Positions 3 to 55,841 of a DNA stretch of 64,000 bases are shown in pieces (positions within the stretch are counted from its first letter, which is position 1; each line of letters starts with the position of its first letter). Below the pieces are notes generated by a model. That model made no database searches. It was not told the origin of the DNA and saw nothing but the letters and a program-made list of their open reading frames with translations. Origin of the DNA: a virus; the IMG/VR virus record IMGVR_UViG_3300045993_000425, positions 1 through 64,000 of that record, one strand, 5' to 3'. The position numbers and the translations under genes were made by a program.

Positions 3-953
3 ATCAGTCCTAACATCGTCCTGGTGGCTTGCGGCTTCTCTGAGCAGGTGCTGGGGACACTCGCTCTGAACTTCCGAGAGGCATCCACCATCAACGTCCT
101 GCCCCTCGTCGCACCTCGCTCGATCTTGCAAAATGGCGAGGCTCACTTCCTAGACGATGTTGCAGCCATCACCGGGTCCGAGGTGCTTGACCCACTCCAG
201 AGGACTTTCGATGTCGCTCGCATCCCTGGAGAGTCTGAATCAGACATCGGTCAGGTTGACGGCTTTGAGATGCTGCGCTTCCGCTCGACCATCTTCGGAT
301 ACGCCGACGAAGACCTCATCGTCGACCGGGCAGAGGTGCTCGAGGGTATGGCCAAGTCTGCCATCTCTGAGCTAGATGGGCGAGCTCTTCGGGAGCGACT
401 TGCTGCTCTGACTGGTGGAATCGCGAAGTTGTGGGTCATCGGCTCAAGTCAGGGTGAACTGCGAGAGCGCAAAGACCGTGCTGATGACGCTGTTCGGGCT
501 GTCCAGGGTGCAATGAAGTCTGGAGTACTGCCTGGTGGAGGATGGACTCTGGTTCGTTTGTATGATGCGCTCAGAACATCATTCACCAAGGGCACCCCCG
601 AGATGGACGTTCTAGGACGCTCACTTATTGAGCCGGTGCGGCTGCTCCTATCGAACACTGGCATGACCTACGACGTGGCTTCTCATATCATCGAGGATAT
701 GCTGGGCGACCAGAATCAGGTCTGGGATGCCGCCAAGAGAATCTGGATCCCGGCTTTCGATGGAGAAATCCTCGACTCCGTTCCTGCCGTTCGCGAGGCT
801 ATCCGAAACAGCATCTCAATCGCCAGCCTTCTTGGGACTCTAGGAGGAGTAGTTGTCTTTGGGCGAGACATCGAACTAGAGCGTCGGGAGGCGCAGCAGA
901 CGAACCAGTACCTCCGCGAAACGAACACGTTCGATGTCAATGAGAGGGCTTGA
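3..953 (+). CDS. groEL: GroEL-type chaperonin, C-terminal 316 residues (5' end outside window)
   Basis: The reading frame is open from the window edge, so the start lies upstream. The visible part aligns by eye with GroEL from the apical domain onward: an apical segment with 'GTLALNF' and 'DDVAAITG', then 'LRERLAALTGGIAKL', the lysine/arginine-rich helix with 'ADDAV' (its Asp corresponds to the ATPase Asp398 of E. coli GroEL), and 'GVLPGGGWTLV', which corresponds to the GroEL GGG loop. The C-terminal equatorial segment has 'SIASLLGTLGGVVV'. The usual Gly-Met tail is missing; the protein ends in a charged, Asn/Gln-rich tail. GroEL folds proteins inside an ATP-driven ring. Phage copies are known in some large phages and probably fold phage proteins. 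No GroES is visible. The stop overlaps the next start (TGATG). The family call is firm; activity is inferred. Confidence 0.9.
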   Translation: MSPNIVLVACGFSEQVLGTLALNFREASTINVLPLVAPRSILQNGEAHFLDDVAAITGSEVLDPLQRTFDVARIPGESESDIGQVDGFEMLRFRSTIFGYADEDLIVDRAEVLEGMAKSAISELDGRALRERLAALTGGIAKLWVIGSSQGELRERKDRADDAVRAVQGAMKSGVLPGGGWTLVRLYDALRTSFTKGTPEMDVLGRSLIEPVRLLLSNTGMTYDVASHIIEDMLGDQNQVWDAAKRIWIPAFDGEILDSVPAVREAIRNSISIASLLGTLGGVVVFGRDIELERREAQQTNQYLRETNTFDVNERA

Positions 954-43522: not shown

Positions 43523-46270
43523 TTAGTGTGCCAGGTCTTCTTTAGGCAGACCGGCCTGTTCGTTGGTTGGTGACTTGTGCGCGTCTCTGTCGAGTGGCAT
43601 TGATGGACCCTTTTCATCAGGTGTAAGGTCCGGCTTCTTGAGCCCCATCATGATGAGGAACATTTCATTGACCTTGGATCCACTTGTGGTCAGCTGTTCC
43701 ATCAACTCCCTGAACTTCTCCCCTTGCTTAAACATAGCCTTGGAGAACACATCTTTCTGGTCGCCACCTCCCCCACCTGTGGCCTTCCGACTCGCCTCTC
43801 CAGAGCCGTCTCCCATTGACCTGACTTGTCCGGTTGCTGCTTCTGCGCTTCCGAATGTTTCTGGATCGATCTGGTATTCTAGGTTTGCCAGCACCCTGAA
43901 GTTGTCTTCGCTTGCCCCAAGTCCGTCCTTCCTGGACTTGTCGTTTCTCCACTTCAAGACATCGCCCTTATACTCATCACCCAGAATCAGGTTGGCGAGC
44001 TTTGTCGCCTGCGTACCGGCTCCGGATGTTCCCCCGATGTAAGTGCCTAGAGCCCTGGTCGCACTGAACCTGACTTTATCTTCGATGTTCTTTCGTGTGA
44101 TACCCATAGAACTGAACTCAATTGGGATATCTTTGGTTAGGTAGTTGCCATTCTTGTCTTTCCTCAATAGACTCATGGCTGTGGCATAATCGAGGTTCGC
44201 CAACATGTTCTGACCTAGCAAGTTGTTGCCAGGCATGACCTTCACCGCATCTGCTAGGTTGACAGAGCGCCGCCAGTCGGTAGCTCCTTTCAATAGGTTG
44301 TCCCCTACCTGCAATCCCATTTGGTTCTGCTGCAACATCCGAAGCTGCTCTGGGCTCTTCATCTTGTTGGGGTCAATGCCGCTCGAGAGCATGCCGACTA
44401 GGCCATCCATAGACCCAATGGTGCGGTTAGGACCCATCAATGCAGCCACGGCACTGCCGAGAGTCTCCTGTACCACCGTTTGGTCAAGACCCGTGTGGCG
44501 CAGTGTTTTCAGTAAGTCCCCGCCACCAAGTGCTCCAATGGCTGCGATAGTCGCCGCTGCCCCACCAGACATGCCTCCAGACACTGATGTTATTGCAGAA
44601 CCATACAACCCTTTGGTCTTTAGTACCCCTCTCCCGCCAGCACCGACTAATGCCTCTAGCAAACCTTGTTGCTGCTCTGGTGTCATCCCAGACTTGTAGG
44701 CATTTCGCGTTGCTAGCTCGATGGACGATGCTGACAACCCGATGCGATTCGATGTAGCGACCAATCCTTGTGCTCGACTTAGAGCTGTGCTAATGGCTGC
44801 GTTCTCTCTCGTCTGCGAGGCTTTCTTTCTGGCGACTGAATCCGCCTCTTGTTCGTTCAGCATAGCGTTGACGTTTGCGTCTGCGTTGGCTAGCTCAGCT
44901 TGCCGAATATTTGGATGTAGGATGTTTCGTGCTGTATTATCCAGATATCCCCAGATTGTCTTCTGTCTCTCTCCTAGATCGTAGGCAGCGGCTCGAGACT
45001 TCCCGAAGCTTGCGGCTGAACCGTCGTCATCGCTAACGGTGCCGATTCTTCTGCTATCAATGATCTGCTGACGGGCATATTCCGTAATCAAGTCACCGTG
45101 CTGGATACTTGCCTGCATCTGCCCTACGCTCTGTCCTGACCTCGCTGCGATGCCCATCTGCATATCAGCAGCTTGCTGTCGTAGTTCAAGCGTATCTCTC
45201 TGGTATCCATGCACAAACTGCCCAGCCTTAACGCCGGCGTAGATTCCAGCGAGTCCTAGCCCGAGAGCCCCTGCTCCACCAGCAATAAACGCTAGCCTGC
45301 CTCCAGCTAGTGTGTTAGCCAATCCTCCAGCACCGGGAATTGAGCCAAGAGCCCCCGCCAGCATTCCAAAGCGATCACTTCCCTCCTCGCCATATCCTGC
45401 CTGCTGATCTAGAAGGGACTTGTGATTGGCCGAAACACTAGCAAGTCGTCTACCGGCTGTCGCCATGCGCTCGTTCGCTGCGATTCGCTCTTTAGAAGAG
45501 GCCGCGCTCTCTGCCTTATCCTTCCACTTGGCGTAGCTATCCGACAGCCCGTTGATGATTCGCTTGGACTTCTCCAGCTTCTTGTCTAGGTCTTCTACCG
45601 ACCTCCCGAGCACCTCCTTCAGGACCCGTCCCGTCTTGCCGGCCTCCCCACCGAGTTCCTTGATGAGAGCCTTGTCCTTCAGGATGGCATTGGACAAACC
45701 GCCACGCTGCTCTGGTGACATCAGCTGCTTTTCATGCAGACGCTTGGGCTTCTCATCTGGAGCAACCAACGTCCTCTCGCTACCCAGCTCCCCCTGCTTG
45801 ACATACAGCTTCGATACAATGCGATTCACTTGTTCGTTTTTCTTTACAAGCTTGGGCACTTGACTAGGGTTGACCTCCCTCGCAAGGTCTAGAGCTGCTT
45901 GGGTGCCCTCCTTCAACGCCAAAGCCTTCTGGAGCCTAGAGGTTGTCTTAGAGATTCGACTGTCCACTTGCGCCAGTGACTGACTCAGCACCTGCTTGAG
46001 AACACGGTCGAGGGTCTTCGCTTGGTCCCCTAGTTCCGCGAACCCCCTCTTACGCTCTAGGAGGAACTTCGCGAAAGCTCCCTGCGCCAGATTCTGCTGC
46101 TGGGCAGACATAGGTCTGCTACCGGCACCACCAGCCCCACCCTGCCCAATTGCGCTGAAGACCTTGCTAGCCTGACCACCCTGGCTGATGATCTGCTGGA
46201 GTACCTGAAGGATCTGCCTACCACCGCTGGCATCACCTTTGATCGCAATACGCAAGTTGGTATCGGCCAC
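43523..46270 (-). CDS. Tail tape measure protein
   Basis: A 915-residue protein starting at GTG with AAGG upstream. Long helical regions rich in Gln, Lys, Ala and Ser occupy about residues 20-300. A hydrophobic Gly/Ala/Leu segment follows at 310-355 ('GGAGALGLGLAGIYAGVKAG'), typical of the membrane-active part of tape measures. A mixed helical remainder completes it. It sets tail length and is injected ahead of DNA. It lies directly after two small chaperone-like genes, as usual. Confidence 0.85.
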   Translation of the reverse strand: MADTNLRIAIKGDASGGRQILQVLQQIISQGGQASKVFSAIGQGGAGGAGSRPMSAQQQNLAQGAFAKFLLERKRGFAELGDQAKTLDRVLKQVLSQSLAQVDSRISKTTSRLQKALALKEGTQAALDLAREVNPSQVPKLVKKNEQVNRIVSKLYVKQGELGSERTLVAPDEKPKRLHEKQLMSPEQRGGLSNAILKDKALIKELGGEAGKTGRVLKEVLGRSVEDLDKKLEKSKRIINGLSDSYAKWKDKAESAASSKERIAANERMATAGRRLASVSANHKSLLDQQAGYGEEGSDRFGMLAGALGSIPGAGGLANTLAGGRLAFIAGGAGALGLGLAGIYAGVKAGQFVHGYQRDTLELRQQAADMQMGIAARSGQSVGQMQASIQHGDLITEYARQQIIDSRRIGTVSDDDGSAASFGKSRAAAYDLGERQKTIWGYLDNTARNILHPNIRQAELANADANVNAMLNEQEADSVARKKASQTRENAAISTALSRAQGLVATSNRIGLSASSIELATRNAYKSGMTPEQQQGLLEALVGAGGRGVLKTKGLYGSAITSVSGGMSGGAAATIAAIGALGGGDLLKTLRHTGLDQTVVQETLGSAVAALMGPNRTIGSMDGLVGMLSSGIDPNKMKSPEQLRMLQQNQMGLQVGDNLLKGATDWRRSVNLADAVKVMPGNNLLGQNMLANLDYATAMSLLRKDKNGNYLTKDIPIEFSSMGITRKNIEDKVRFSATRALGTYIGGTSGAGTQATKLANLILGDEYKGDVLKWRNDKSRKDGLGASEDNFRVLANLEYQIDPETFGSAEAATGQVRSMGDGSGEASRKATGGGGGDQKDVFSKAMFKQGEKFRELMEQLTTSGSKVNEMFLIMMGLKKPDLTPDEKGPSMPLDRDAHKSPTNEQAGLPKEDLAH

Positions 46271-46272
46271 GA

Positions 46273-46767
46273 CTATGCCTTTCGGATCATGGGTCCGAGC
46301 GGGTCTGAGCTCAGGAACCTGTCATCTTTTAGATTGCGACCGAACTGCATATCGATTAGGTTTTCTTCATTCTCGGGCAGGACCAATTTGGGCTTCTTCG
46401 ATTTGTCGGCACCTGCCTTCAGCTTTGCCGACTTCTCTTTGTCTGCCTTCACGTCTTTGTTCAGCTGCTCGAGGAAGCGGTCGTCGGCTTCTTCTGCTGC
46501 CTTCTCTGCTGCCAGACGCTTCTCTCGCTCTTCTTCGCTCTCTGAGAGCACCTCTGCGTACTCAGACCTCTGCTGCTCAGGCATCTCATCGAAGATGTGC
46601 TCAAACCAGGCTTGCAGAACCTGCTCGACAGGAAGTTCGGAGACTACATGTAGGGGTGTGTGAAACGTGACACTGTACTGCCTGCAAACGTGACGCAGCC
46701 ATGCTTGACGGTCGGGATTAAGGACCGCCAGCATGGCTCGACACTCGATCGCCCGATCGAGGTCCAA
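46273..46767 (-). CDS. Tail assembly chaperone candidate (second gene)
   Basis: A 164-residue protein if it starts at the TTG at 46767, or 153 if it starts at the ATG at 46734; neither has a good ribosome site. It has a helical N-terminus ('VLQAWFEHIFDEMPEQ') and a long charged coiled coil of Glu/Lys/Ala. It lies between the first chaperone-like gene and the tape measure. It is in the same frame as the upstream gene, separated only by TAA and one codon, so the classic frameshift fusion is not required. Confidence 0.65.
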   Translation of the reverse strand: MDLDRAIECRAMLAVLNPDRQAWLRHVCRQYSVTFHTPLHVVSELPVEQVLQAWFEHIFDEMPEQQRSEYAEVLSESEEEREKRLAAEKAAEEADDRFLEQLNKDVKADKEKSAKLKAGADKSKKPKLVLPENEENLIDMQFGRNLKDDRFLSSDPLGPMIRKA

Positions 46768-46770
46768 GGC

Positions 46771-47166
46771 TTACTTCGACTCAAGCTCTCGGAGCTTCTT
46801 TTGGGCCTCTTCACCCTGCTTCTTGACTTCATCTGCGTGCTGGTCGCGAACCTTGCGTACCTGCTCATAGACTGCCATCAGGAGGTTGGTGTCAGAGTGC
46901 CCTACACCACCAGCCCACCACTCTGGCGACTCGGTCAGGCGCACCTGTAGTTCGGCTAGGATGCTCGCTGCTGCCAGGGCCTCAGGGTCGACAGAGTCGT
47001 AGGGGCCTGGACCCAGGAGATCTCGCCGGATACGGTCGATCCGAAGCTGGTCGCCAAAGCTGAGAACTTCCTTCGACCGGAAATCTCCGTCCCAGGTTTT
47101 CCCTGTGACATCACCTCGGTCGACGTGGACGTTGAACTTGACACCTTCGTATTGCTTGATTGCCAT
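46771..47166 (-). CDS. Tail assembly chaperone candidate (first gene)
   Basis: A 131-residue protein that begins the - strand tail run after the 233-base gap. It has an N-terminal beta part ('EGVKFNVHVDRGDVTGKTW') and a helical, Lys/Glu-rich C-terminus. Size and position before the tape measure match G-type tail chaperones. AAGGGA lies before the ATG. Confidence 0.65.
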   Translation of the reverse strand: MAIKQYEGVKFNVHVDRGDVTGKTWDGDFRSKEVLSFGDQLRIDRIRRDLLGPGPYDSVDPEALAAASILAELQVRLTESPEWWAGGVGHSDTNLLMAVYEQVRKVRDQHADEVKKQGEEAQKKLRELESK

Positions 47167-47399
47167 TTTTGTCCCTTCAGTTAGTTCCTATGAGGGAAGT
47201 AACAGAAAGCAGTGATCTGCGGGGCTGGGTGGTTGACTTGTAGATTGCCACCGTGCTAGAGGGTTCCAATGATGATGTAGTGTCTTTCCATGAGTTAGGC
47301 TCAGAATAGGGAGGGGTCGTGCCACAAGCTGTGGGTTCGGTCGATGGTTCGCAGTTGGTGGAAGTCTTCTGGTTGCTAGACTTCTGCTACTGAGCCACC
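47167..47399. other. Divergent intergenic region (233 bases)
   Basis: It lies between the - strand tail operon and the + strand island. No gene was found. It must hold the start of the tape-measure transcript if that operon is transcribed separately, yet no sigma-70-like promoter is visible on the - strand. A TTGACT at 47233 lacks a good -10. Confidence 0.6.
47355..47382 (+). promoter_or_regulatory. Possible promoter of the accessory island
   Basis: -35 TTGGTG (47355-47360), 16-base spacer, -10 TAGACT (47377-47382), four of six matches each. Predicted start near 47389, 11 bases before the first island ATG. Weaker than the other promoters described here. Confidence 0.4.
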
Positions 47400-47924
47400 A
47401 TGCCTACCATCATCAATCGCACCTCTGTCTCCGACGACAAGCTGGCTCGCATCGTTCGCTTTCTTGGACGACGCCTCCCTGCGGTCACAGAGACAGCTAT
47501 CGTCTTTGAGACAACAGACCCCAAGGCTCCAGGGGCTGCTTGGATGACCGGTGAGGCCCATCCCGGTGGCGGCTGGTTCGCAGGACACCGCCAGAGGCAC
47601 TCCAGCGTGATCTACATCCCTACGCTAGAGCGCCCCTACCCTGTCACGATCCAGAATCCTGCGGCGGATGGTAGGTGCCCTTGGGAGACCCTGACCGATT
47701 GGGAGGAGGAGCTCCTGCTCGTCCTCGCCCATGAGTTGACTCATGTCGCCCAGTACGAAATGGCTGGAGCCAATCTCCTTGATGTCGTTCACGACGTTGA
47801 CGATGAGTACGAGCTGGAGGCCGCACAAGTCGCCAGCAAGATGCTCAGTGAGTGGCGCACCCGCGAGAGTGGGCAGCACAAGAAGATCAGGAAGGCAGAT
47901 AACGTCTATGAAACTGTGGCTTGA
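47400..47924 (+). CDS. HExxH zinc metallopeptidase
   Basis: A 174-residue protein. 'LVLAHELTHVAQYE' carries the zinc-binding H111-E112-x-x-H115. A third ligand is likely Glu140 in 'EYELEAAQVA', 25 residues later, as in gluzincin-like phage and SprT-like peptidases. It has no signal peptide or other domain. It might cleave host or phage proteins in the cytoplasm; the substrate is unknown. It is the first gene of the + strand island and overlaps the receiver-like gene by 17 bases. Confidence 0.78.
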   Translation: MPTIINRTSVSDDKLARIVRFLGRRLPAVTETAIVFETTDPKAPGAAWMTGEAHPGGGWFAGHRQRHSSVIYIPTLERPYPVTIQNPAADGRCPWETLTDWEEELLLVLAHELTHVAQYEMAGANLLDVVHDVDDEYELEAAQVASKMLSEWRTRESGQHKKIRKADNVYETVA

Positions 47925-48321
47925 TGACAACAGACCTGCGCCTCATGGCTGGACCCCAGCTAGGACCGGCGAACAGGCCTCTCTACACCTCTTGACGCAT
48001 CCGGTCGATGAGATGAGCCTAGACTATGACCTCGACGAGCCAGATTGCTCTACATGTAGACAGCAGTGTGGTCTGCGTGAGCCTGGCGGCTGTCGAGTGA
48101 AGTGCGGCTGCCATTCCGGCTCAACCAACGGAATGGAGCTCTTGAAATGGATGCGATCACGAAACATCTGGCCAAGGACTCAGCCAGAGGTCCACTCAGC
48201 AAACAAGCACTGGGCTCCCAAGATGGTCGAGTTCATCCGAAGCAATTACCCAGGCGCACTCTCAAGGTCATCACCCAACCACCAACCTCAGGAACCTGCG
48301 GACCAGCCTCCATCGCCATGA
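47908..48321 (+). CDS. Cyclic-phosphate-processing receiver domain (cPRR) protein
   Basis: A 137-residue protein. It begins 'MKLWLDDNRPAPHGW', the hallmark of this receiver-like family (LDDxRPxP), then 'DEMSLDYDLDEP' (the SLDxDL strand) and 'PEVHSANKHWAPKM' (the HSAN motif). The family has been predicted, from genome context, to act on cyclic-phosphate RNA ends in RNA repair. An unusual insert of seven cysteines lies after the SLDxDL strand ('CSTCRQQCG', 'CRVKCGCHSG'), probably binding metal. The RNA ligase 3.4 kb downstream on the same strand supports an RNA-repair link. The family call is good; the reaction is inferred. Confidence 0.72.
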   Translation: MKLWLDDNRPAPHGWTPARTGEQASLHLLTHPVDEMSLDYDLDEPDCSTCRQQCGLREPGGCRVKCGCHSGSTNGMELLKWMRSRNIWPRTQPEVHSANKHWAPKMVEFIRSNYPGALSRSSPNHQPQEPADQPPSP

Positions 48322-48701
48322 TCTCAGGGTGTTCCCTAGATCAGGCGATAGCTGCGATGGGAACCTCGTCCTCGAGTACTGCTGGGGCCTCAGATAGGGA
48401 CATGAGGACGGCTCTGGTCCGGTTGGGAATCAAGGTGGCACCTTGGCTCAAGGCTGCTCGACGGGTCCACATCCCTGACTTCTGCCTAGCGACCATCGAG
48501 GATAGTCGGGTAAGAAGCTTCGGTCATGCAGTGGCTATCCTCGATGGGCTCGTCTATGACCCCGGTGTCGGATGGCCTATGCCTCTGCGGGTCTATGAGG
48601 ACCACCTGATGCCTACCTATGGGCACAAATCTCACGTTTCATGGGATCGCTTCCTGCCGATCCTCTCAGAGCCGCCTTCAGCAGACCGCTGGCCATTTTA
48701 G
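48147..48701 (+). CDS. C39-like cysteine peptidase or peptidase-like protein
   Basis: A 184-residue protein. Core: 'SGTCGPASIAMISG' (nucleophile Cys after a turn) and 'SFGHAVAILDGLVYDPGVGW' (catalytic His, then Asp), the order seen in C39/papain-like peptidases. The ATG at 48147 has GGAG eight bases upstream but lies inside the receiver gene, giving a 175-base overlap in another frame. No later start codon is available before the core. The substrate is unknown. Confidence 0.65.
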   Translation: MDAITKHLAKDSARGPLSKQALGSQDGRVHPKQLPRRTLKVITQPPTSGTCGPASIAMISGCSLDQAIAAMGTSSSSTAGASDRDMRTALVRLGIKVAPWLKAARRVHIPDFCLATIEDSRVRSFGHAVAILDGLVYDPGVGWPMPLRVYEDHLMPTYGHKSHVSWDRFLPILSEPPSADRWPF

Positions 48702-48738
48702 GCTTGCCATCTGATAGTCTCTCTGATACCTTCGCCGC

Positions 48739-48960
48739 ATGGCAAAGTGGATCGTGGAGGTCAAGAGAGGCGAGGTGATGATGTCCTACTATCGTGGGTG
48801 TCACGTCACCGACTGGTCTGGAGAGGACTGCGGGAAGGGGAGGCTTGACCAATTGCCTGACTTGGTCAGCTTTGTCACTCAGAAGGCTGAACCCTGCGAC
48901 CGACTGTCTCTCCCATCAGGCGAGTACTACATCCAGTCGGCACCCTTCGCGAGGGCATAA
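48739..48960 (+). CDS. Small protein of unknown function
   Basis: A 73-residue protein after a 37-base gap that contains a direct repeat of TCTGATA. Mixed composition with 'VMMSYYRGCHVTDWSGEDCG' in the first half and beta-type sequence after. No clear ribosome site. The next small frame starts within its stop (TAATG). Confidence 0.5.
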   Translation: MAKWIVEVKRGEVMMSYYRGCHVTDWSGEDCGKGRLDQLPDLVSFVTQKAEPCDRLSLPSGEYYIQSAPFARA

Positions 48961-49070
48961 TGAACATTTTCGGGGTACACATCTGCGCCGATGAGGTCAA
49001 CCAAGTCCTCTCACTCTGGGGCAACTTCGGGTGGTTCATCAGCTATCTGTTTCGTCGGTTCAAACCATGA
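48960..49070 (+). CDS. Tiny coupled reading frame, 36 residues
   Basis: It starts at the ATG sharing a base with the previous TAA. The C-terminal half is hydrophobic and aromatic and ends basic ('WFISYLFRRFKP'), so it could insert in or bind to a membrane. Support is limited to the overlap and to filling an otherwise empty 120-base stretch. Confidence 0.4.
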   Translation: MNIFGVHICADEVNQVLSLWGNFGWFISYLFRRFKP

Positions 49071-49081
49071 CAGGAGGCAAC

Positions 49082-49339
49082 ATGTACGAGATGGACATGT
49101 CGTCAAGGGAGCGGCTCGATGTTCTGGAGGTCGAGTTGGACTGGCTCCGCAGAATCGAAACGGTCGGAGCCAGCTATGTCGACCGGGAGCGAGCCGTAGA
49201 GGACCGCAGGCGACTGATGCCTGAGGTAGCCATCCTGCGTAAGAAGGTCGAGTGGGAGAACGCAAAGGCAGGAAAGGCGGTAGCGGCGATCTTCGCCTCT
49301 CTCGCCTTCGTTGCCTGGTTCGCTTGGCTAGTTCGCTGA
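49082..49339 (+). CDS. Small coiled-coil protein with C-terminal membrane anchor
   Basis: An 85-residue protein with AGGAGG five bases before the ATG. Charged coiled coil over residues 5-60 ('RERLDVLEVELDWLRR'), then one membrane helix at the C-terminus ('AVAAIFASLAFVAWFAWLV'). It would be tail-anchored with its bulk in the cytoplasm. This is not a normal spanin layout, in which the helix is N-terminal. Role unknown. Confidence 0.65.
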   Translation: MYEMDMSSRERLDVLEVELDWLRRIETVGASYVDRERAVEDRRRLMPEVAILRKKVEWENAKAGKAVAAIFASLAFVAWFAWLVR

Positions 49340-49341
49340 TG

Positions 49342-49701
49342 CTACCAGAAGGTGGGTAGCTTCGGAACCACCCCACCCTGCGGGAGGTCGAAGATCATCT
49401 GCGTGGGGACGTTGATTGCCGCACCTAGAGCAACGGTGTAGGCACTCAGGTCTGCTGGCTGACCAGCCACATTCTTGGTCGTCCGACCATCTGCTGAGAC
49501 ACCCTCAGAGGGGGCTAGACCGACCTGAATGTGAGTAGTATCGGTCAGTTTGAGCACAATAACTGCGACTCCAGGGAGCCCTGTGCCCTCAACGTAGGCC
49601 TTGGCTCCAGGCCAAAAGGCGCGGGAGGCGGCGACCTGGATGACTCCACCCTTGGTGCCGGTTGCTGCGAACGCTTCTTTGTAGGCATCAATCTGAATCA
49701 T
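49342..49701 (-). CDS. Small beta-rich protein, possibly virion-associated
   Basis: A 119-residue protein on the - strand inside the + strand island. The ATG at 49701 is chosen for GAGGG six bases upstream; a longer form from 49794 would begin at the CATG that also starts the opposite gene. The sequence is rich in Gly, Val, Ala and Thr ('GVIQVAASRAFWPGAKAYV'), similar in style to head-decoration or cement proteins, and ends aromatic. No family is firmly recognised. Confidence 0.55.
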   Translation of the reverse strand: MIQIDAYKEAFAATGTKGGVIQVAASRAFWPGAKAYVEGTGLPGVAVIVLKLTDTTHIQVGLAPSEGVSADGRTTKNVAGQPADLSAYTVALGAAINVPTQMIFDLPQGGVVPKLPTFW

Positions 49702-49743
49702 TTCGCCCTCATGGGTATCATCTGGTAGATTGCTGCCCGCGTT

Positions 49744-49754
49744 CTGATAGTTTT
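49744..49754 (+). promoter_or_regulatory. CTGATAGTTTT element abutting a -35 box (second copy)
   Basis: The same 11-mer as at 20252-20262 on the other strand, here two bases before the TTGACG of the promoter at 49757. Confidence 0.5.
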
Positions 49755-49756
49755 GC

Positions 49757-49785
49757 TTGACGTTCTGAGAGTGCAGTGGTAGAAC
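49757..49785 (+). promoter_or_regulatory. Sigma-70-like promoter with near-zero leader
   Basis: -35 TTGACG (49757-49762), 17-base spacer, -10 TAGAAC (49780-49785). Transcription should start at about 49792, with the ATG at 49793, so the mRNA would be leaderless or nearly so. No ribosome site lies before the ATG, which is consistent. Confidence 0.72.
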
Positions 49786-49792
49786 CTGATTC

Positions 49793-51193
49793 ATGGACAA
49801 CGCAAACACCGCCGCCGCCGAAGTCGAGAAGGTCTACACCGTCGCCGCCGCCGGTCTGTCTCGGCTCGCGGCTGTCATCGAGAAGCTCAACAAGCGGGCA
49901 GTCAAGCTGGGCTGCGCCCCCATCGCCTTCGAGCAGGTGGGCGAGGTCTACTCCAAGACCATTCGCGACCCGCTCACCCACATCGAGATGGTCGTGCGGC
50001 TGGTCGATGTCCTCCTCTGCGGCAAGCAGCCCGGTGTCAACGGATGGCAGCTGGTCGCGACCATCGCCCCGGTCAAGGCGGATGACGGGTCGGTCGCCAA
50101 CATCGTCAACGTCGTCCCCGGCTTTCAGGGCATCCCGGTCGAGTACCGGACGGTCAAGATGACCTGCCAGCACTGCAACACCCTCCGCTACCGCAACGAC
50201 GTTGCCCTCCTTCAGGAGATCTCGACCGGCACCTACAAGCAGATCGGTCGGAACTGCCTCGCTGACTTCCTCCGGTCGGGTGACGCAGACGCTCTCCTCG
50301 GCTACGCCGACATCATCGAGTCCGCTCGCAATGCTTTCGATGAGGAATCGGGCGGCTTGGGCTCCGCTTCCGCCGATGCAGTCAAGCTGGTCGAACTGCT
50401 GACCTGGACCTGCTCCATCGTCGCCAAGGTTGGAGCCTACGTCTCCAAGAAGAAGGCCGACATCGAGGGGATCATGCCGACCAGCTTCATCGCTCGCGAG
50501 GTCATCATCGGTCGCGGCAAGGAGGCTGACAAGGCTCGCGTGGAGTTCCAGCCCACCGAGGCCAACGTCGAGAAGGCGAAGCTGGTCATCGACTGGTGCC
50601 GCAATGTCCTGCCGGGGCTGGTCGAGCAGGATGAGGCGAACGACTACCTCTACAACCTCAAGATCTCGACCGCCAACTCTGAGTGCCTCATCAAGCTGAT
50701 CGGGGTCGCCGCCTCTGCCGTTTCCGCCTATGACCGGCACATCTCCCAGAAGGCGGAAGCCGCCAACAAGGTCATCAGCAAGCACTTCGGGGTGGTTGGG
50801 GAGCGCATCAACTTCCTGAAGGTGACCGTCCTCCGCATCACCTCCTTCGACGGCTTCTACGGCACCTCCTACGCCTCCACCCTCCTCACCGAGGACGGCA
50901 ACGTCGCTGTCTGGCTGGGCTCCTCCCCCATCCAGAGCCACGTCGAGTCTGTCAAGGCTGACGGCACCGTGACCTACACCGCCGGAACCGCCAACGTGGG
51001 CGACAAGGTGGTCATCTCTGCCACCGTCAAGGCTCACGACAACTACAAGGGTGCCTGCCAGACGAAGCTGTCTCGCTGCCAGACCTGGACCCCTGCGGGC
51101 ATCGAGGCTGAACTCGCCAAGCAGGCGAAGAAGGTGGCTCGCGAGGCGAAGAAGGCCTCCAAGGCGACCAAGGCTGCGGCTCAGGCGGCCTAG
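49793..51193 (+). CDS. Zinc-ribbon protein of unknown function with GC-rich, C-ending codons
   Basis: A 466-residue protein. The N-terminus is helical and Ala-rich. 'MTCQHCNTLRYRNDV' near residue 123 and 'IGRNCLADFLRSG' near 145 give a Cys pair plus a third Cys, likely a zinc ribbon. The central part is helical and the C-terminus beta-rich ('FLKVTVLRITSFDGF'), ending in a Lys/Ala helix. Its codon use is strikingly C- and G-ending compared with neighbours. It has the strongest promoter of the island. This looks like a highly expressed protein, perhaps early host-takeover or nucleic-acid binding, but no function can be assigned. Confidence 0.75.
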   Translation: MDNANTAAAEVEKVYTVAAAGLSRLAAVIEKLNKRAVKLGCAPIAFEQVGEVYSKTIRDPLTHIEMVVRLVDVLLCGKQPGVNGWQLVATIAPVKADDGSVANIVNVVPGFQGIPVEYRTVKMTCQHCNTLRYRNDVALLQEISTGTYKQIGRNCLADFLRSGDADALLGYADIIESARNAFDEESGGLGSASADAVKLVELLTWTCSIVAKVGAYVSKKKADIEGIMPTSFIAREVIIGRGKEADKARVEFQPTEANVEKAKLVIDWCRNVLPGLVEQDEANDYLYNLKISTANSECLIKLIGVAASAVSAYDRHISQKAEAANKVISKHFGVVGERINFLKVTVLRITSFDGFYGTSYASTLLTEDGNVAVWLGSSPIQSHVESVKADGTVTYTAGTANVGDKVVISATVKAHDNYKGACQTKLSRCQTWTPAGIEAELAKQAKKVAREAKKASKATKAAAQAA

Positions 51194-51222
51194 TCGTCTG
51201 CTTGGTAGTGCTATAGGATGGC

Positions 51223-51705
51223 ATGACCAAAACACCCCCCAAGAAGACAGAGAAGCCGCAATCCCAGATCTGCCTTTCCGAGGTACTCAAGGAGCGATCA
51301 GAGAAGACATGTGGAGGTGAGTGTGAGAACTGCACCTGCGATGCCGACGAAAATCTGCTCGTTCTAGCCGATAAGCAGCGAGAGGCACTAGAGCTGATGC
51401 AGCATCTCGTGACGCTGGTGAGTGACGACAAGCCGCTGGTCGATGCCGTCGTTGCGGCTCGCGCCAGGACCGTCGTTCACTACATCATCTTGTCCATGTA
51501 CGACGGTCTCCCGTACAACCTGGATGACTATGAGGTTGCGGTAGGATCTTTCATCGACACTCTCAAGTACCTTGCAGAAGAATCAGACGACAAGGTTGTC
51601 CGCTATATCGCAACCTACGGAAAGTGGGACGTGATCGTCGATGACGAGGAAGCCGTCTCAGTAGACTACAAGGGTGTCTCTGAGAAAGCCCCCAAGGACA
51701 TCTAG
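51223..51705 (+). CDS. Acidic protein with N-terminal Cys cluster
   Basis: A 160-residue protein. A cluster 'CGGECENCTC' near residue 30 may bind metal. The rest is helical and strongly acidic. An extended -10-like TGCTATAGG lies just before the start. Its stop abuts the RNA ligase ATG. No family recognised; co-transcription with the ligase is likely. Confidence 0.65.
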   Translation: MTKTPPKKTEKPQSQICLSEVLKERSEKTCGGECENCTCDADENLLVLADKQREALELMQHLVTLVSDDKPLVDAVVAARARTVVHYIILSMYDGLPYNLDDYEVAVGSFIDTLKYLAEESDDKVVRYIATYGKWDVIVDDEEAVSVDYKGVSEKAPKDI

Positions 51706-52779
51706 ATGGGCAAGTTCCAGGTGCTGGTAGTCGAGGTCGGAGCCATCAAGCCGCATGCTCAAGCAGATCGCCTTAGCTGGGTAACCATCCAAGAGGCAGG
51801 GAATGTTCCTGTCGTATTTCGGACGGGTGACCTAGTAGAGGGGCAGCTAGCTGTCTACTTCCCAATCGACTCTGTCATCCCTGAGAGTGTGCCTGGCACT
51901 AGCTTCCTTGGTTCGCACAGGCGAATCAGGGCAATGCGACTCAGGGGAATGTACAGTGAGGGGCTCATCCTGCCAGCCCAGAACGTCCTCGACAAGCCGG
52001 TGAAGGGGCAGGATGTATCCTCCTTCCTTGGGGTCAAGAAGCACGAAGATCCGATCCCGGTCAAGATGGGAGGCGAGCAGGTAGCCAATCCAGGCTTGCC
52101 CACCTACGAGGTCGAGTCTCTAGGTGGGTTCCCATGCATCCTTTCTGAGGATGAAGATGTAGTCATCACAGAGAAATTGCATGGAACCAACGCTCGCTTC
52201 GCTCTCGTCGATGGACGGTTCTACGCTGGTAGTCATCACTGCTTCTGGCGAGACATGAGGAGCGGCTGGCGGGAGTGGAAGCGTTGGGGCGAGAACCTGC
52301 TTCGACGCCTGAAGAAGGAGACACCTCGCCCTCCCCCACTCGACAATGTCTACTGGCAGATCGCCAGGAAGCACGACCTCGAGGAGAAGATGTATCGGGA
52401 GGGGTACTATGACTTTTCTATCTATGGCGAAATCTTCGGGGATATCCAAGACCTGAAGTACGGCCACGGCAAAGGCGAGATCAGCTTCTATGTCTTCGAT
52501 GTATGGGACAGTCAGAAGAAGGGCTGGCTGGGCTGGGACGACACTGTCGAGGTGGCTCGCAGGATGGGTCTAGCTGTCGTTCCTGTCCTCTACCGGGGTG
52601 CCTACCATGACGGCCTCCTCAAGAAGCTGGTCGACGGAGATAGCATCCTGGCGAGCCACATCCGAGAGGGCATCGTCCTCAAGACCACAGCAGAGAGCGA
52701 GCCGGGAGTGGGGCGTTTCATCATCAAGATGGTCAGCCAGCAGTACAAACTACGCAACAATCCGAGCGAACTGAAATGA
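51706..52779 (+). CDS. RNA ligase, Rnl5/DRB0094 type
   Basis: A 357-residue ligase with an N-terminal OB-like domain ('RIRAMRLRGMYSEGLILP' near 70-85) followed by the nucleotidyltransferase domain, the order of the Deinococcus DRB0094 family. Motif I is 'TEKLHGTNARF' with the adenylated Lys157. Motif III is 'FSIYGEIFG', motif IV 'REGIVLKT', motif V 'FIIKMVSQQYKL'. It seals 3'-OH/5'-phosphate breaks in RNA. Phages use RNA ligases to undo host anticodon-nuclease damage. A cPRR-family gene is upstream in the same island. CAAGGA lies before the ATG. Confidence 0.9.
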   Translation: MGKFQVLVVEVGAIKPHAQADRLSWVTIQEAGNVPVVFRTGDLVEGQLAVYFPIDSVIPESVPGTSFLGSHRRIRAMRLRGMYSEGLILPAQNVLDKPVKGQDVSSFLGVKKHEDPIPVKMGGEQVANPGLPTYEVESLGGFPCILSEDEDVVITEKLHGTNARFALVDGRFYAGSHHCFWRDMRSGWREWKRWGENLLRRLKKETPRPPPLDNVYWQIARKHDLEEKMYREGYYDFSIYGEIFGDIQDLKYGHGKGEISFYVFDVWDSQKKGWLGWDDTVEVARRMGLAVVPVLYRGAYHDGLLKKLVDGDSILASHIREGIVLKTTAESEPGVGRFIIKMVSQQYKLRNNPSELK

Positions 52780-52982
52780 GCGACCTCTCATGGAAGGTAG
52801 GTGGGTACACCTCGGTCGCCTACCTGCCTCCTCTGACTCTCATCACCTGGAGGTCGCAAGACAACCAGTGGCTCTGGATGATCGTGGGGGCTTTCAACCA
52901 AATCCTCAGGCATGGGCACTCACCAGACGAGGAAACGGCTCGCCAGACGGCCCAGGAGCACGCAGGAGCAACGAAGCCATGA
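52776..52982 (+). CDS. Small protein coupled to the RNA ligase
   Basis: A 68-residue protein, its ATG overlapping the ligase stop (ATGA). A Trp-rich N-terminal half ('LITWRSQDNQWLWMIVGAF') resembles a compact beta domain. The C-terminus is helical and charged. Its stop overlaps the next start. Tight coupling suggests it works with the ligase; no family recognised. Confidence 0.6.
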   Translation: MSDLSWKVGGYTSVAYLPPLTLITWRSQDNQWLWMIVGAFNQILRHGHSPDEETARQTAQEHAGATKP

Positions 52983-53470
52983 CCCGCCGACGAATACTCA
53001 TCCTGATACCAGACTCACGTCCTGACAGCTCTGGAGAGGTTTGGGAGGGTGCCGACATCCAGCTCCCAACTGGTCTAGTGCCAGTGGCCATCGACAGTCG
53101 GCTCGATGACCCCCTAGCACAGGTCGGAAACGCTACCGTAGTCAAGTCTCCAGATGGTCTGATTTATGCAGATGTCGCCTTCAGCGGGAACGCCGGTAGA
53201 CCCTGCTTCCACTATGTCCTAAAGCAGATGCGAGCCTACATCATCGGAGACATCAATGGGCTCGAGCAGAGAGGGCACCATCGCCTGATTAGGAAGGCCG
53301 TCGTAAAGGCTATCGGGTTCACGATGGGGCTCAACGCAGACCGCAGAATCCCGACACTCTCTGCCCAGGGATTCTGGCCAGATATCCCCAACCCTCCTGC
53401 GGTCAAGAGAGGGCTACGCCTAGTCAGGGATGAGCCAGCCAGCGACCCAGATGCACCTCGCTCTGCCTAG
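52979..53470 (+). CDS. Unknown protein, last of the island
   Basis: A 163-residue protein, ATG overlapping the previous stop, AGGAG nine bases upstream. An alternating N-terminus ('RRILILIPDSRPDSSGEV') and a helical centre with basic residues ('LIRKAVVKAIGFTMGLNAD'), then a Pro/Asp tail. No motif recognised. Confidence 0.6.
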   Translation: MTRRRILILIPDSRPDSSGEVWEGADIQLPTGLVPVAIDSRLDDPLAQVGNATVVKSPDGLIYADVAFSGNAGRPCFHYVLKQMRAYIIGDINGLEQRGHHRLIRKAVVKAIGFTMGLNADRRIPTLSAQGFWPDIPNPPAVKRGLRLVRDEPASDPDAPRSA

Positions 53471-53477
53471 AAAGCAA

Positions 53478-53499
53478 AAGGGCCGGTTTCCCAGCCCTT
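53478..53499 (-). terminator. Terminator at the island/tail-tube boundary
   Basis: Stem AAGGGC (53478-53483) with GCCCTT (53494-53499), extended by two inner G-C pairs after one mismatch, four-base loop. On the - strand it is followed by TTTTGCTTTC, so it terminates transcripts coming from the tail tube gene. On the + strand the T-tract is absent. Confidence 0.72.
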
Positions 53500-53527: not shown

Positions 53528-54028
53528 CTAGCCACCGGATGCATGAACCGCAAGGTCCATCGAGTCGGTTGGTTCTTCGTTCGTATCCGCCGTCTCGTCG
53601 GTGTAGACAAGACCCTGGAACGTCACGGTGAACTCCTGAAGCGACCGAGGAGACACCTGGCTCGAGAAGCCGGTCGCCTTGCAGTTGCTGACCTTCATGA
53701 TAGTAGCCTTTGCAGGATCAGCAGCGGAACGGTCTGTCAGCTCGATGGAAATGTCCTCGTAGGTGAGCATCTCAGTCAGCTTCGGAATCAGCTGCACGCC
53801 GGAAGTGCTGCCAAACGCTCCCTGGTCCATGATGCGGAAGCCGGCTGCTGTAACGCTGACTACCTCGGCTCCGGTATAGACGAGTTCGGCAGCCGAAAGA
53901 CGACCGATGATGTAGACTGGGGCGACATCGAGGTTCACGTTCCAGCTGCAATTGGCGAAGAAGCCGACCTTCTTGCCGGAAACCGACAGGATGGCTCGTG
54001 CGCCATGAATGACTTTAGAAGCTGCCAT
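53528..54028 (-). CDS. Tail tube protein
   Basis: A 166-residue protein immediately after the sheath gene, the usual tube position. It is a beta-rich protein beginning 'VIHGARAILSVSGKKVGFFA', with 'KATGFSSQVSPRSLQEFTV' near the end, typical of tail tube proteins of contractile phages. It forms the inner tube through which DNA passes. GAGGA lies before the ATG. Confidence 0.82.
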   Translation of the reverse strand: MAASKVIHGARAILSVSGKKVGFFANCSWNVNLDVAPVYIIGRLSAAELVYTGAEVVSVTAAGFRIMDQGAFGSTSGVQLIPKLTEMLTYEDISIELTDRSAADPAKATIMKVSNCKATGFSSQVSPRSLQEFTVTFQGLVYTDETADTNEEPTDSMDLAVHASGG

Positions 54029-54047: not shown

Positions 54048-55841
54048 TTACGCGGACTGAGTCGGCTGCGTGAGCAGGAACCGAATCGGGATGAAGTAAA
54101 CGCCGGTCCCAGGCTTGATTTCAGCCGACACCAGCATCGCTGGGGGGCTGATCTGCACGCTGGCGTTCTTGTAGCCACCAGGCGCGTCGTCGCTAGAAAC
54201 CATCAGCTTGAGCCGGTAGAGCTCGCTCAGAATGCTCTTGAGGTAGCTCAGAGCGATTGCGGCAGACACATCTGCGAAGTTCTGGCCGATGAAGGCCTTC
54301 TCCATCTTGTCCGAAACCGTCATGGCGATGGTGTCAGCGGTGTAGACGGCCTGGATGCTGTTGTAGACGAAGTTGTTGTCATATCCGTAGGTTGTCTGGT
54401 CAGAGACGAATGACATGACACCATCAGACATCCGAGGAGCCAGGATGAGGAGGCCATTTCGGATGGCATCCTCGAGTGCATCCTGGTTCTCGACTACGAA
54501 GTCGCTCTTGGGGGCGCGGCTGCCGTAGACGTTGAGAGCCTTGTTGAAGATCGGGCGGTAGCCTGCGCTGGCCTGCATCGCTGCCGCGACGACTGCACAA
54601 GCCCACGGCTGGAACCAAGTCAAGGTGCCGCTAGCGTTCGGCTGTAGAGTATCGAGGTAGCTGAGAGCCATCCGAGCCGAGCCCATCTGCTGCGCCTTTG
54701 CCTTTGCGTTGGCGTAGGTGTCGCTGACACTCGGGAAGCCCTGACGCGGCTTGCGCTGCTTGAACTGCGAGCAGTAGCTCAGGTGCGTCGAGAGGGCCGC
54801 ATTGACACCAGCGATGGTGTAGGTCGAGGAGGAGTCGGTAGCTCCGATAGCAATGTCACCGGTTGTCGCAGTGGTCGCATCCTGGCTGAAGAGAGTAACG
54901 ATAAAGTTCGCCCGGAGACGAGCCGCCTGGTCAAGAGCGGCGATGACGTTGGAATCGTAGGTGTGGCCGAGGGCCCCACCATTCAGGAAGGTGATGGTTT
55001 GTGAAGCCGGAAGACCGGTGTTCGGGAAGATCGTCGAATCGACCGAAACCAGACGGCTGGTAGCAATCGCCTGCATGAAGTCGAAGGCATCCTTCTTGAC
55101 ACTGAAGCCACCACCAGAGACATCGGCTCCGCTGACCTCATCTAGAACGAACGGAGAAAGCTGCGAGTAGACAGGAGTAACAGTCGCAGACCAGCCCTTG
55201 GAGGTGATGAAGGCAGCTAGGTCGCCTAGAGTCTTGAAGTCGGAAAGACCAGCCGTCCAAGCAGAAACTCCGTTGCTGTAACCAGTGATGGATGTCGCAC
55301 CGATAGTCATAGTAGGTACGGTTGCACCGCTAGATACCAGCATAGCAACCGACCCACCAACAACGAACTGCTCAGAAATGTTGTCATTCTTGCGAGCGAT
55401 TGTGATGGTCGATGAGCCGCTTGAGGTAGCTACAGTGACAGAGATGAGGTTGCCATTCTTTCCGGCTGACTTTGCATCCAGCTTGGCGTAGCCGCCGGTA
55501 AGGGTTGTCGACGCCTTGGTGCCCTGGTTCGTCTTGATGAGGACGATCTGGGTAGGGCTGCCCTTGACCTGTGGGTCCTTGGAAGGAGCGCAGGCGAGGA
55601 GGTACGCATCGACTAGGCGACCCGACCCGAACTTGGCAACTACATCAGCCTTCTGGGAGGGACCATAGACGCTAGTCGAGGTTACATCCTCATCGAGATA
55701 GCTGGGACCATCAGAGGCCTCACCGACGAGGACAACGACACCGGTAGTCGAGGTGCCAGACGTGCTGGGAGCCACGTCCCACTTAGCTGGTGCGCTCGGA
55801 ATGTAGAGCGTGCCGTCTGTAGTAGTGTACGAAAGAGCCAT
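54048..55841 (-). CDS. Tail sheath protein
   Basis: A 597-residue protein. 'TGVVVLVGEASDGPSYLDED' near residue 30 is the typical sheath N-terminal strand region. 'VEIND'-type linkers are not obvious, but the C-terminal domain with 'IALSYLKSILSELYRLKLMV' and 'IPIRFLLTQPTQS' fits the sheath C-terminal domain. A protease-resistant outer domain occupies the middle. Sheath contraction drives the tube through the envelope. Strong TAGGAG before the ATG. Confidence 0.87.
   Translation of the reverse strand: MALSYTTTDGTLYIPSAPAKWDVAPSTSGTSTTGVVVLVGEASDGPSYLDEDVTSTSVYGPSQKADVVAKFGSGRLVDAYLLACAPSKDPQVKGSPTQIVLIKTNQGTKASTTLTGGYAKLDAKSAGKNGNLISVTVATSSGSSTITIARKNDNISEQFVVGGSVAMLVSSGATVPTMTIGATSITGYSNGVSAWTAGLSDFKTLGDLAAFITSKGWSATVTPVYSQLSPFVLDEVSGADVSGGGFSVKKDAFDFMQAIATSRLVSVDSTIFPNTGLPASQTITFLNGGALGHTYDSNVIAALDQAARLRANFIVTLFSQDATTATTGDIAIGATDSSSTYTIAGVNAALSTHLSYCSQFKQRKPRQGFPSVSDTYANAKAKAQQMGSARMALSYLDTLQPNASGTLTWFQPWACAVVAAAMQASAGYRPIFNKALNVYGSRAPKSDFVVENQDALEDAIRNGLLILAPRMSDGVMSFVSDQTTYGYDNNFVYNSIQAVYTADTIAMTVSDKMEKAFIGQNFADVSAAIALSYLKSILSELYRLKLMVSSDDAPGGYKNASVQISPPAMLVSAEIKPGTGVYFIPIRFLLTQPTQSA

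Follow-up and report, generated by a model that had tools for sequence, protein, structure and literature searches.

Phage T4 undoes anticodon nuclease damage with a tRNA repair system of its own, in which Pnkp and Rnl1 carry out end healing and sealing. Rnl5 enzymes, such as DraRnl and NgrRnl, seal nicks. Another protein family, cREC (cPRR), was earlier linked to RNA ligases and predicted to act in RNA end repair along the lines proposed below (Iyer et al. 2021, PMC7824862; PMC9503650). The family has no experimental characterization, and its activity is a prediction (PMC9503650). Myxococcus phage Mx1 carries a large interval among its tail genes, which its genome announcement does not discuss (PMC10720576). 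In the literature that we searched, we found no description of a hotspot at this tail junction or of a link between phrog_2319 and RNA ligases.

We analyzed the first 64,000 nucleotides (the window) of virus record IMGVR_UViG_3300045993_000425, a myophage record of 166.8 kb that is a distant relative of Mx1. An initial annotation had described an accessory island with an RNA-repair flavor inside the tail operon.

Results

The tail gene order is interrupted

The core tail genes lie on the minus strand. The sheath gene (54048 to 55841) is the upstream core flank, and its product matches phrog_279 (E value, 1.8e-33) and is 41 to 42% identical to the Mx1 sheath. The tail tube gene (53528 to 54028) forms the right flank of the interval. 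Its product is 35% identical to a sheath-adjacent Mx1 protein and matches phrog_985, a virion structural protein, at 1.2e-4. Tail chaperone A (46771 to 47166) is the left flank, and its homologues border the interval in relatives. Next come chaperone B (46273 to 46767), which is 46% identical to its Mx1 counterpart and has homologues in relatives, and the tape measure gene (43523 to 46270). The latter gave no PHROG match and was assigned by position and length; the order matches that of an outgroup. Because PHROG matches are weak for the tube and chaperones, these were identified mainly from Mx1-like homologues and synteny. The gap between the tube and chaperone A is 6.4 kb and holds about ten plus-strand genes and one minus-strand gene. 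All core genes were thus located, and the order sheath, tube, chaperones, tape measure is split by mostly opposite-strand genes, as first described. The window contains no Rfam match and no tRNA gene.

The left boundary is a divergent intergenic region of 233 bp (47167 to 47399), which, from the gene layout, likely holds promoters for both sides. The island had been credited with its own promoters. However, a promoter scan returned 3 promoter-like sites against 2.3 expected by chance from shuffles. A terminator had been taken to mark the right boundary. This intrinsic terminator (53478 to 53499) is a stem-loop with a T tract on the minus strand only, and it lies directly 3' of the tube gene. 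Therefore, it ends the sheath-tube transcript. The original picture is partly confirmed: its gene layout and main identities hold, but its promoters and island terminator do not.

The junction is a hotspot in Mx1-like myophages

This phage has no DNA-level relatives among phage records. Scanning viral contigs with the ligase protein or the sheath protein alone found nothing, but alignments with Mx1 or other homologues found relatives. The junction between the tube and chaperone A holds extra genes in 12 of 12 Mx1-like records with both flanks readable. The interval measures 6.4 kb in this phage, 31.6 kb in Mx1, and 7.9, 9.0, 11.0, 12.5, 13.5, 15.7, 17.6, 17.7, 24.5, and 24.8 kb in the others. 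In an outgroup clade (L021, L026, and L027), the sheath, tube, chaperone, and tape measure genes are contiguous in three loci. The insertion site is constant and the cargo varies, so the inserted genes are not fixed core genes, an outcome that would have refuted the initial annotation. Because the same junction is filled in every record and is contiguous in the outgroup, it is an accessory hotspot shared by the whole lineage, with a gene content that turns over. The block at 47.2 to 53.5 kb is this phage's version of the fixed hotspot.

RNA-repair or tRNA genes (Rnl5, Rnl1, RtcB, RlaP, Thg1, TROVE, and tRNA arrays) are found in 9 of the 12 intervals; these records share ancestry, so the counts are not independent. 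Mx1 carries a tRNA array and TROVE/Ro60, and G006 carries about 29 to 31 tRNA/tmRNA predictions, RlaP, and TROVE. The cargo of G011 comprises RtcB, Thg1, RlaP, and RNase H. G012 and G013 have Rnl1, Thg1, and RlaP; G016 and G017 have RtcB and RlaP; and L016 has Rnl1, C39, and tRNAs. None of the sought RNA-repair genes was present in the G014, G015, and G018 intervals. The leading families in a Pfam scan of 79 hotspot open reading frames were AAA, RlaP, RtcB, Thg1, and RNase H. The cargo of the relatives strengthens the RNA-repair flavor ascribed to the island. A "90-aa RNA ligase A" annotated in Mx1 was rejected, having neither Pfam nor NCBIfam support.

The island encodes a cREC protein with a Cys-rich insert

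The cREC gene (47908 to 48321, plus strand) encodes a predicted cyclic-phosphate hydrolase. Its product matches PF20274 at 2.1e-17, with 64 bits against a curated cutoff of 27. Residues D6, D7, D39, and H96 are invariant among 28 sequences, and N99 is nearly so; the receiver-like active-site acids are kept. The AF2 model (pLDDT, 86) has response-regulator receivers as its top PDB matches (best E value, 1.1e-3; probability, 1.0). The family assignment made at the outset therefore passed the curated-profile test, and the extra insert reported with it is also there. This Cys-rich CxxC...CxCH insert recurs in other phage cREC proteins.

Further cREC copies lie at 91408 and 145728 of the same genome, and a Pnkp-like kinase (93346 to 93813) lies about 1.7 kb from the genome's second cREC gene, the copy at 91408. 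We identified no dedicated 3'-phosphatase, 2H, or KptA/sirtuin protein in this phage, only a generic NT5C-type HAD protein. Sirtuin-type RNA-end repair was rejected, because SIR2 is absent from this phage, G011, and Mx1. G011 has a gene run of Rnl2-type ligase, VWA, cREC with the same Cys insert, and metallophosphoesterase. In jumbo phage LR756508, one RNA ligase gene lies about 0.4 kb from a cREC gene, and an Rnl5 gene lies about 6.6 kb from it. In the window, some 3.4 kb separates the ligase gene from the cREC gene; they belong to different gene runs and do not form one operon. Only 3 of 80 Rnl5 loci have a cREC gene within 10 kb, so we claim no general linkage; a control scan with a replication gene gave zero loci, which leaves neighborhood enrichment without a proper background.

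An Rnl5-type ligase lies in a coupled gene run

The RNA ligase gene (51706 to 52779, plus strand) matches PF09414 (1.1e-29) and phrog_968. Motifs EKLHGT, YGEIFG, REGIVLK, and IIKM are intact, and the catalytic Lys and motif III to V residues (K157, E242, E321, and K341) are invariant in the alignment. The N-terminal OB domain corresponds to the PHA02142 OB domain (PF21189, 4e-10) and aligns to NgrRnl residues 14 to 137; NgrRnl is also the best PDB relative. The match to TIGR02306 (DRB0094) has an E value of 1.2e-39, but its 136.1 bits miss the equivalog cutoff of 151.15. Therefore, we call the ligase Rnl5 type (DRB0094/NgrRnl) rather than an equivalog, in agreement with its first identification. 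Three plus-strand genes accompany it. The stop of a 160-aa protein gene (51223 to 51705), which has no family match, directly abuts the ligase start. A 68-aa protein gene (52776 to 52982) is coupled to the ligase by a 4-base overlap with its stop, and a 163-aa protein gene (52979 to 53470) overlaps that gene by 4 bases and ends the run. The 163-aa protein has no Pfam or PHROG match and no phage tblastn match.

phrog_2319 accompanies RNA ligases

The gene at 49793 to 51193 (plus strand) encodes a phrog_2319 protein (1.3e-65) that contains a Cys-pair motif and, by prediction, an OB-like domain at the C terminus. It had been described as a strongly expressed zinc-ribbon protein. The Cys-pair motif is present, and the GC3 is 0.88, compared with 0.75 in the capsid gene and 0.64 as the median of the core. 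This value fits high expression or recent import. The whole-protein fold was rejected because of the low model confidence (pLDDT, 56), so we used only the C-terminal part, with caution. In this low-confidence model, the beta domain at the C terminus is similar to the OB folds of SSB and RPA. The family has matches in 157 phage-collection records, KVP40 included, and is functionally unannotated in PHROGs. Each of the 6 intervals that carry an RNA ligase also has phrog_2319, and none of the 6 ligase-free intervals does (Fisher P = 0.002, for 12 related records). Besides this phage, it occurs in 5 further hotspots, each with an RNA ligase. We propose that phrog_2319 is an RNA-repair accessory factor.

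Peptidase-like and other island genes

Two island genes had been read as peptidases. The gene adjoining chaperone A (47400 to 47924, plus strand) encodes a putative metallopeptidase with an HExxH motif (HELTH). However, no Pfam peptidase family scored above cutoff; the best match was DUF6782, with 15.6 bits against 27. The C39-like, papain-fold-like protein (48147 to 48701, plus strand) shows by eye the Cys/His motifs TCGPAS...GHAV and has a weak phrog_4049 match (0.0035), but it has no Pfam match at an E value of 1, including to PF03412 and PF13529. By contrast, the L016 hotspot protein matches the peptidase C39 profile. Neither protein has homologues among known phages. Both stay unassigned to a peptidase family, and a role for island peptidases is not supported. 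The C39-like start, ATG 48147, is preceded by GGAG and gives an overlap of about 175 bases with the cREC gene. The coding signal switches to the C39 frame near 48252, downstream of this ATG. We rejected a programmed frameshift fusing cREC to the C39-like frame, as there is no slippery heptamer and ATG 48147 is available as a start.

Genes for a 73-aa protein (48739 to 48960) and for a protein of about 100 aa with a C-terminal hydrophobic segment (49031 to 49339; start uncertain; weak PHROG match) follow on the plus strand. The initial annotation overlooked a tail-strand gene inside the island (49342 to 49809, minus strand), which encodes a probable virion protein. Its product is related to the N terminus of the Mx1 tailspike (Mx1 64599 to 64910; 30.5% identity over 118 aa; E value, 3e-7), which is encoded in the same Mx1 interval.

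Discussion

We propose that the hotspot of Mx1-like myophages mostly carries genes that sustain translation under host RNA cutting and that the island represents RNA repair by cREC, kinase, ligase, and phrog_2319. We give this reading a probability of roughly 0.6. What the data show is the identity of the genes, the conservation of their active-site residues, the constancy of the site, and the return of phrog_2319 and RNA-repair genes there; the individual biochemical steps, the substrate acted on, and a purpose against host defense are all inferred. A host or competitor nuclease would break tRNA or another structured RNA, leaving a 2',3'-cyclic phosphate, which the cREC protein would open, and a 5'-OH end, which the Pnkp-type kinase from elsewhere in the genome would phosphorylate. 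Some phosphatase, not among the genes identified, would clear the 3' end. The Rnl5-type ligase would then seal the nick, and phrog_2319 may assist by binding either the RNA or the ligase. The hotspot cargo probably helps the phage survive host RNA cleavage that stops infection. Of the interpretation first attached to the island, the accessory island, the cPRR protein, and the RNA-repair flavor are retained; its promoters and island terminator are not, nor is any role for the peptidases supported, and its link between cREC and ligase is not new.

The split tail order might be an assembly or recombination artifact, or the opposite-strand genes might be spurious, given that the sequence comes from a metagenomic virus record. 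However, the gene families are real by their profile matches, 10 further contigs agree, and Mx1, an isolated closed genome, is split at the same junction, which refutes the artifact. We regard its probability as negligible. It is rather unlikely, though worth serious weight, that the site simply tolerates insertions (flanked by a late terminator and a separate chaperone transcript) and gathers any useful gene. RNA-repair genes would then be present only because such genes are numerous in large phages, and the island's genes would not be one pathway. The mixed cargo (peptidases, ClpP-like, Dam, SAM synthetase, HD_4, and AAA), the three intervals without sought repair genes, the separate runs of cREC and ligase, and accessory genes between core genes at several other places in this genome all fit this. 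However, the same narrow set of RlaP, ligases, Thg1, and tRNAs returns in 9 of 12 intervals, three unrelated ligase types occupy one site, and phrog_2319 tracks ligases in 6 of 6.

The ligase might instead serve phage DNA replication or repair, at nicks with ribonucleotide 3' ends, with cREC acting on nucleotide or ADP-ribose signals in a mixed nucleic acid and anti-signaling set. Rnl5 adjoins helicase or polymerase genes in CcrColossus, Bambus, Tunturi_3, and MW202637. This phage also encodes an ATP-dependent DNA ligase and an ArdA-like anti-restriction match, and cREC is also predicted to act on cyclic ADP-ribose derivatives and is fused to Nudix (PMC7824862, PMC9503650). We consider this improbable, because this phage, G011, and Mx1 have no sirtuin, NUDIX occurs only in a large protein that this phage shares with Mx1 and G011 and that lies away from cREC, and relatives fill the slot with the RNA ligases RtcB or Rnl1.

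If translation rescue is right, one genomic address in any Mx1-like phage would yield its current RNA-repair or translation-rescue genes, uncharacterized ones included. phrog_2319 would gain a testable role, and cREC with kinase and ligase would be a natural setting for probing the predicted cREC activity. More tentatively, these phages may keep a dedicated, swappable RNA-repair slot mid tail operon, in which Rnl5, Rnl1, and RtcB exchange, phrog_2319 is the common RNA-repair partner for any ligase, and the cREC Cys insert is a metal-binding RNA-recognition element.

Compared with T4 tRNA repair, this phage uses another ligase family, and its stand-alone kinase lacks the phosphatase domain found on the T4 kinase and is joined by cREC. 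DraRnl (DRB0094) and NgrRnl, the top NCBIfam and PDB matches, share the N-terminal OB and nucleotidyltransferase domains with the phage protein, a predicted ligase that at 136 bits falls below the equivalog cutoff of 151. Mx1 (OR576727.2) has the same core order on both sides and the same insertion point, and its interval likewise has an opposite-strand block beside the chaperones and a tailspike-related gene inside. However, it is longer, carries the tRNA array and TROVE, and has no detected cREC or PF09414 ligase. P2/P4-type phage hotspots (Rousset et al. 2022, PMC9122126) likewise combine a fixed position with variable conflict genes. In contrast to those, our site lies in large myophages amid tail morphogenesis genes, and its cargo is mostly RNA repair and tRNA rather than defense systems. 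The cREC-RNA ligase neighborhoods of jumbo and medium phages likewise pair cREC with an ATP-grasp RNA ligase, and they also include a kinase, a calcineurin phosphoesterase, and predicted RNA end repair (PMC7824862, PMC9503650). Most phage ligases in that survey are Rnl1 or Rnl2 (PMC7824862), whereas in this phage, which has no sirtuin, the ligase is an Rnl5 type that sits at a fixed hotspot of the tail operon and has phrog_2319 as its recurring companion.

A 6.4-kb island splits the tail genes of a distant Mx1 relative

The full virus record has 166,843 bases, and the window covers bases 1 to 64000. No DNA-level relative of the window was found among 50,697 phage records. The sheath protein matched only that of Myxococcus phage Mx1 among phage records (42% identity), and about 54 ORFs matched Mx1 proteins, with their order largely kept. 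Therefore, this phage is related, though distantly, to Mx1, which belongs to the Caudoviricetes, has a contractile tail, and was isolated on Myxococcus. The portal ORF of the window phage is 1595 aa, versus 686 aa in Mx1. Intein-like inserts were seen in core and metabolic genes (portal, prohead protease, ThyX, and a head-region gene) at 149197 to 153984 (− strand), 135946 to 140718 (−), 86478 to 88049 (+), and 146926 to 149195 (−) of the record; Pfam matched an intein-splicing domain and a Hint domain among the scanned ORFs of this genome. A protein encoded at 24 to 950 (+) of the window matched the Pfam model for chaperonin (Cpn60) over the model's C-terminal portion (7.9e-12).

The − strand encodes the tail sheath (54048 to 55841), the tail tube (53528 to 54028), both chaperones (A and B, from 47166 down to 46273), and the tape measure (46270 to 43523). 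As the initial annotation described, this order is split by mostly opposite-strand genes: the 6.4 kb between tube and chaperone A hold about ten genes on the + strand and one on the − strand. Those on the + strand form two tightly packed runs. The first (47400 to 49339) encodes the HExxH, cREC, and C39-like proteins and small proteins. The second (51223 to 53470) encodes a 160-aa protein, the RNA ligase, and proteins of 68 and 163 aa, and its neighbors abut or share 4 bases. The phrog_2319 gene (49793 to 51193, +) lies between the runs. The sole − strand gene (49342 to 49809) encodes a product resembling the N terminus of the Mx1 tailspike, which sits in the corresponding Mx1 interval.

The terminator at 53478 to 53499 had been taken as the right boundary of the island. 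It follows the tube gene on the − strand and so ends the late transcript of sheath and tube. Transcription of the chaperones and tape measure thus probably requires a separate promoter, for which the 233-bp divergent gap (47167 to 47399) would be the simplest place. The island had also been credited with its own promoters, but a promoter scan of the region gave hits at chance level.

The insertion site is fixed and rich in RNA-repair genes

It had been proposed to compare gene order in related phages. Scans of viral contigs with the sheath and with the chaperones brought in further relatives, giving 12 records with both flanks readable (the window record, Mx1, and ten contigs). In all 12, chaperone A was separated from the tube. 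The intervals measured 6.4, 7.9, 9.0, 11.0, 12.5, 13.5, 15.7, 17.6, 17.7, 24.5, 24.8, and 31.6 kb, the window phage having the smallest; the Mx1 interval runs from the end of the tube at 42700 to the start of the chaperones at 74303. A more distant clade (loci L021, L026, and L027) has no insert: its sheath gene, tube-like genes, chaperone genes, and tape measure gene are consecutive on the same strand. The parsimonious reading is that the compact order is ancestral and that the hotspot opened in the Mx1-like lineage.

RNA-repair or tRNA genes occur in 9 of the 12 intervals. Mx1 has a tRNA array and a Pfam-confirmed TROVE/Ro60 protein, with peptidyl-tRNA hydrolase and RNase H also annotated. 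Among the contig records, G006 has about 29 to 31 tRNA/tmRNA predictions, RlaP, AAA, and TROVE. G011 has RtcB (2.6e-129), Thg1 (8e-29), RlaP (1e-21), RNase H (1e-19), AAA, a phrog_2319 homologue, and an HExxH protein adjoining chaperone A. G012 and G013 have Rnl1, Thg1, RlaP, and phrog_2319; G016 and G017 have RtcB, RlaP, and phrog_2319; and G003 has tRNAs, a matrixin-like peptidase, and a ClpP-like protein. None of the repair genes searched for was found in the G014, G015, and G018 intervals. The one-sided record L016 carries Rnl1 (4e-19), a C39 peptidase (7e-15), and tRNAs. The top Pfam families among 79 hotspot ORFs were AAA, RlaP, RtcB, Thg1, and RNase H.

Several other features were seen in viral contigs. 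ARAGORN predicted a phage tmRNA with the tag ANDNSYAAPLSAAA in L019 (16028 to 16366, +), beside 27 tRNA genes and immediately following the tail tube. In the G003 hotspot, several proteins are built of many near-identical HRDGGLPAVEWADGTKEWWVDGQ repeats (L046, contig coordinates 16562 to 18728, −). An 86-kb viral contig (L080, 2 to 7414) holds Rnl1, Thg1, cREC, and RlaP homologues inside about 7.4 kb.

No role could be assigned to the HExxH (47400 to 47924) and C39-like (48147 to 48701) proteins, which had been annotated as peptidases. Between 48147 and 48318, the C39-like frame lacks a start codon, and the coding signal changes frame at about 48252 (48147 to 48321, +). The C39-like frame therefore either shares about 175 bases with the cREC gene or is connected to that gene in another way. 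Peptidase-like genes recur in the G011, G003, and L016 hotspots; the searches run found no homology between them and the window proteins.

Ligase, cREC, and phrog_2319

The ligase (51706 to 52779) was correctly called Rnl5 type. It has the complete layout (OB domain plus nucleotidyltransferase) with intact motifs, although it scores below the DRB0094 equivalog cut-off; its closest named relatives are DRB0094 and NgrRnl. The cREC (47908 to 48321) is a true family member, as profile, residues, and fold all agree. Its Cys-rich insert, also noted initially, follows the catalytic LDxDL and lies between strand and helix. Comparable inserts occupy the same position in four loci (L049 of G011, L052, L067, and L074), which suggests a recurrent metal-binding knuckle; the insert itself is modeled at low confidence. 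The genome has a second cREC (91408 to 91680), about 1.7 kb from a single-domain P-loop kinase best matched by bacterial Pnkp kinase domains, and a third (145728 to 146057). A search of the genome for an RNA-repair-type 3'-phosphatase found only an NT5C-type HAD. Elsewhere, in L090 (3309 to 4343, +), a cREC continues into a long C-terminal extension whose DDTL motif resembles that of HAD phosphatases (345 aa); the HAD portion was not confirmed by Pfam.

The 6 of 12 intervals in which phrog_2319 was detected are the same six that bear an RNA ligase (Fisher P = 0.002, without a correction for relatedness). The family has matches in 157 phage records, mostly Vibrio phages. In the T4-like Aeromonas phage phiAS5, phrog_2319 and an annotated RNA ligase are about 3.6 kb apart and share a strand, in a block encoded opposite to the head genes; no ligase is annotated near phrog_2319 in KVP40. 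C-x2-C and NC motifs occur in the middle of the window protein. Its fold model is poor overall (pLDDT 56), and the better-modeled C-terminal beta domain (about 78) resembles the OB-fold single-strand-binding proteins PrgE, Teb1, RPA, and SSB, none with E < 0.001. In G011, G012, and G016 (L045/L182, L181, and L187), the homologue is in two pieces with 0.6 to 0.9 kb of other sequence between, as if an element had inserted. The window gene had been called a strongly expressed zinc-ribbon gene. Its GC3 (0.88, versus 0.75 for the capsid gene) fits strong expression, but values as high occur in other accessory genes of this phage, so that import from a GC-rich source would explain it equally well.

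A possible role in translation rescue

The best-supported reading is that the hotspot cargo serves translation rescue. In this scenario, cREC would open 2',3'-cyclic phosphate RNA ends, the Pnkp-like kinase would phosphorylate 5'-OH ends, the Rnl5-type ligase would seal nicked structured RNA, and phrog_2319 may assist. The step order follows a published prediction for phages, and cREC is described there as experimentally uncharacterized (PMC7824862, PMC9503650). Functional pairing of cREC with ligases is supported by an operon-like run outside the G011 hotspot (Rnl2-type ligase, VWA, cREC with a Cys insert like the window's, and metallophosphoesterase) and by the 484-kb phage LR756508, in which a cREC is separated by about 0.4 kb from an RNA ligase and by 6.6 kb from an Rnl5. 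A cREC lies within 10 kb of only 3 of 80 Rnl5 loci, and therefore pairing with Rnl5 specifically is not general. The main rivals to translation rescue are that the site is a non-specific accessory hotspot, and that Rnl5 has a replication-linked role while cREC acts on nucleotide signals; helicase or polymerase neighbors of Rnl5 in four other phages favor the replication link.

Every enzyme family here is already known, and the cREC-ligase link was predicted earlier. As far as the papers searched show, what is new is the fixed tube-chaperone hotspot in Mx1-like phages and its strong RNA-repair cargo, in which ligase types are interchangeable; also new are the co-occurrence of phrog_2319 with ligases and the recurrence of a Cys-rich insert among cRECs of phages.
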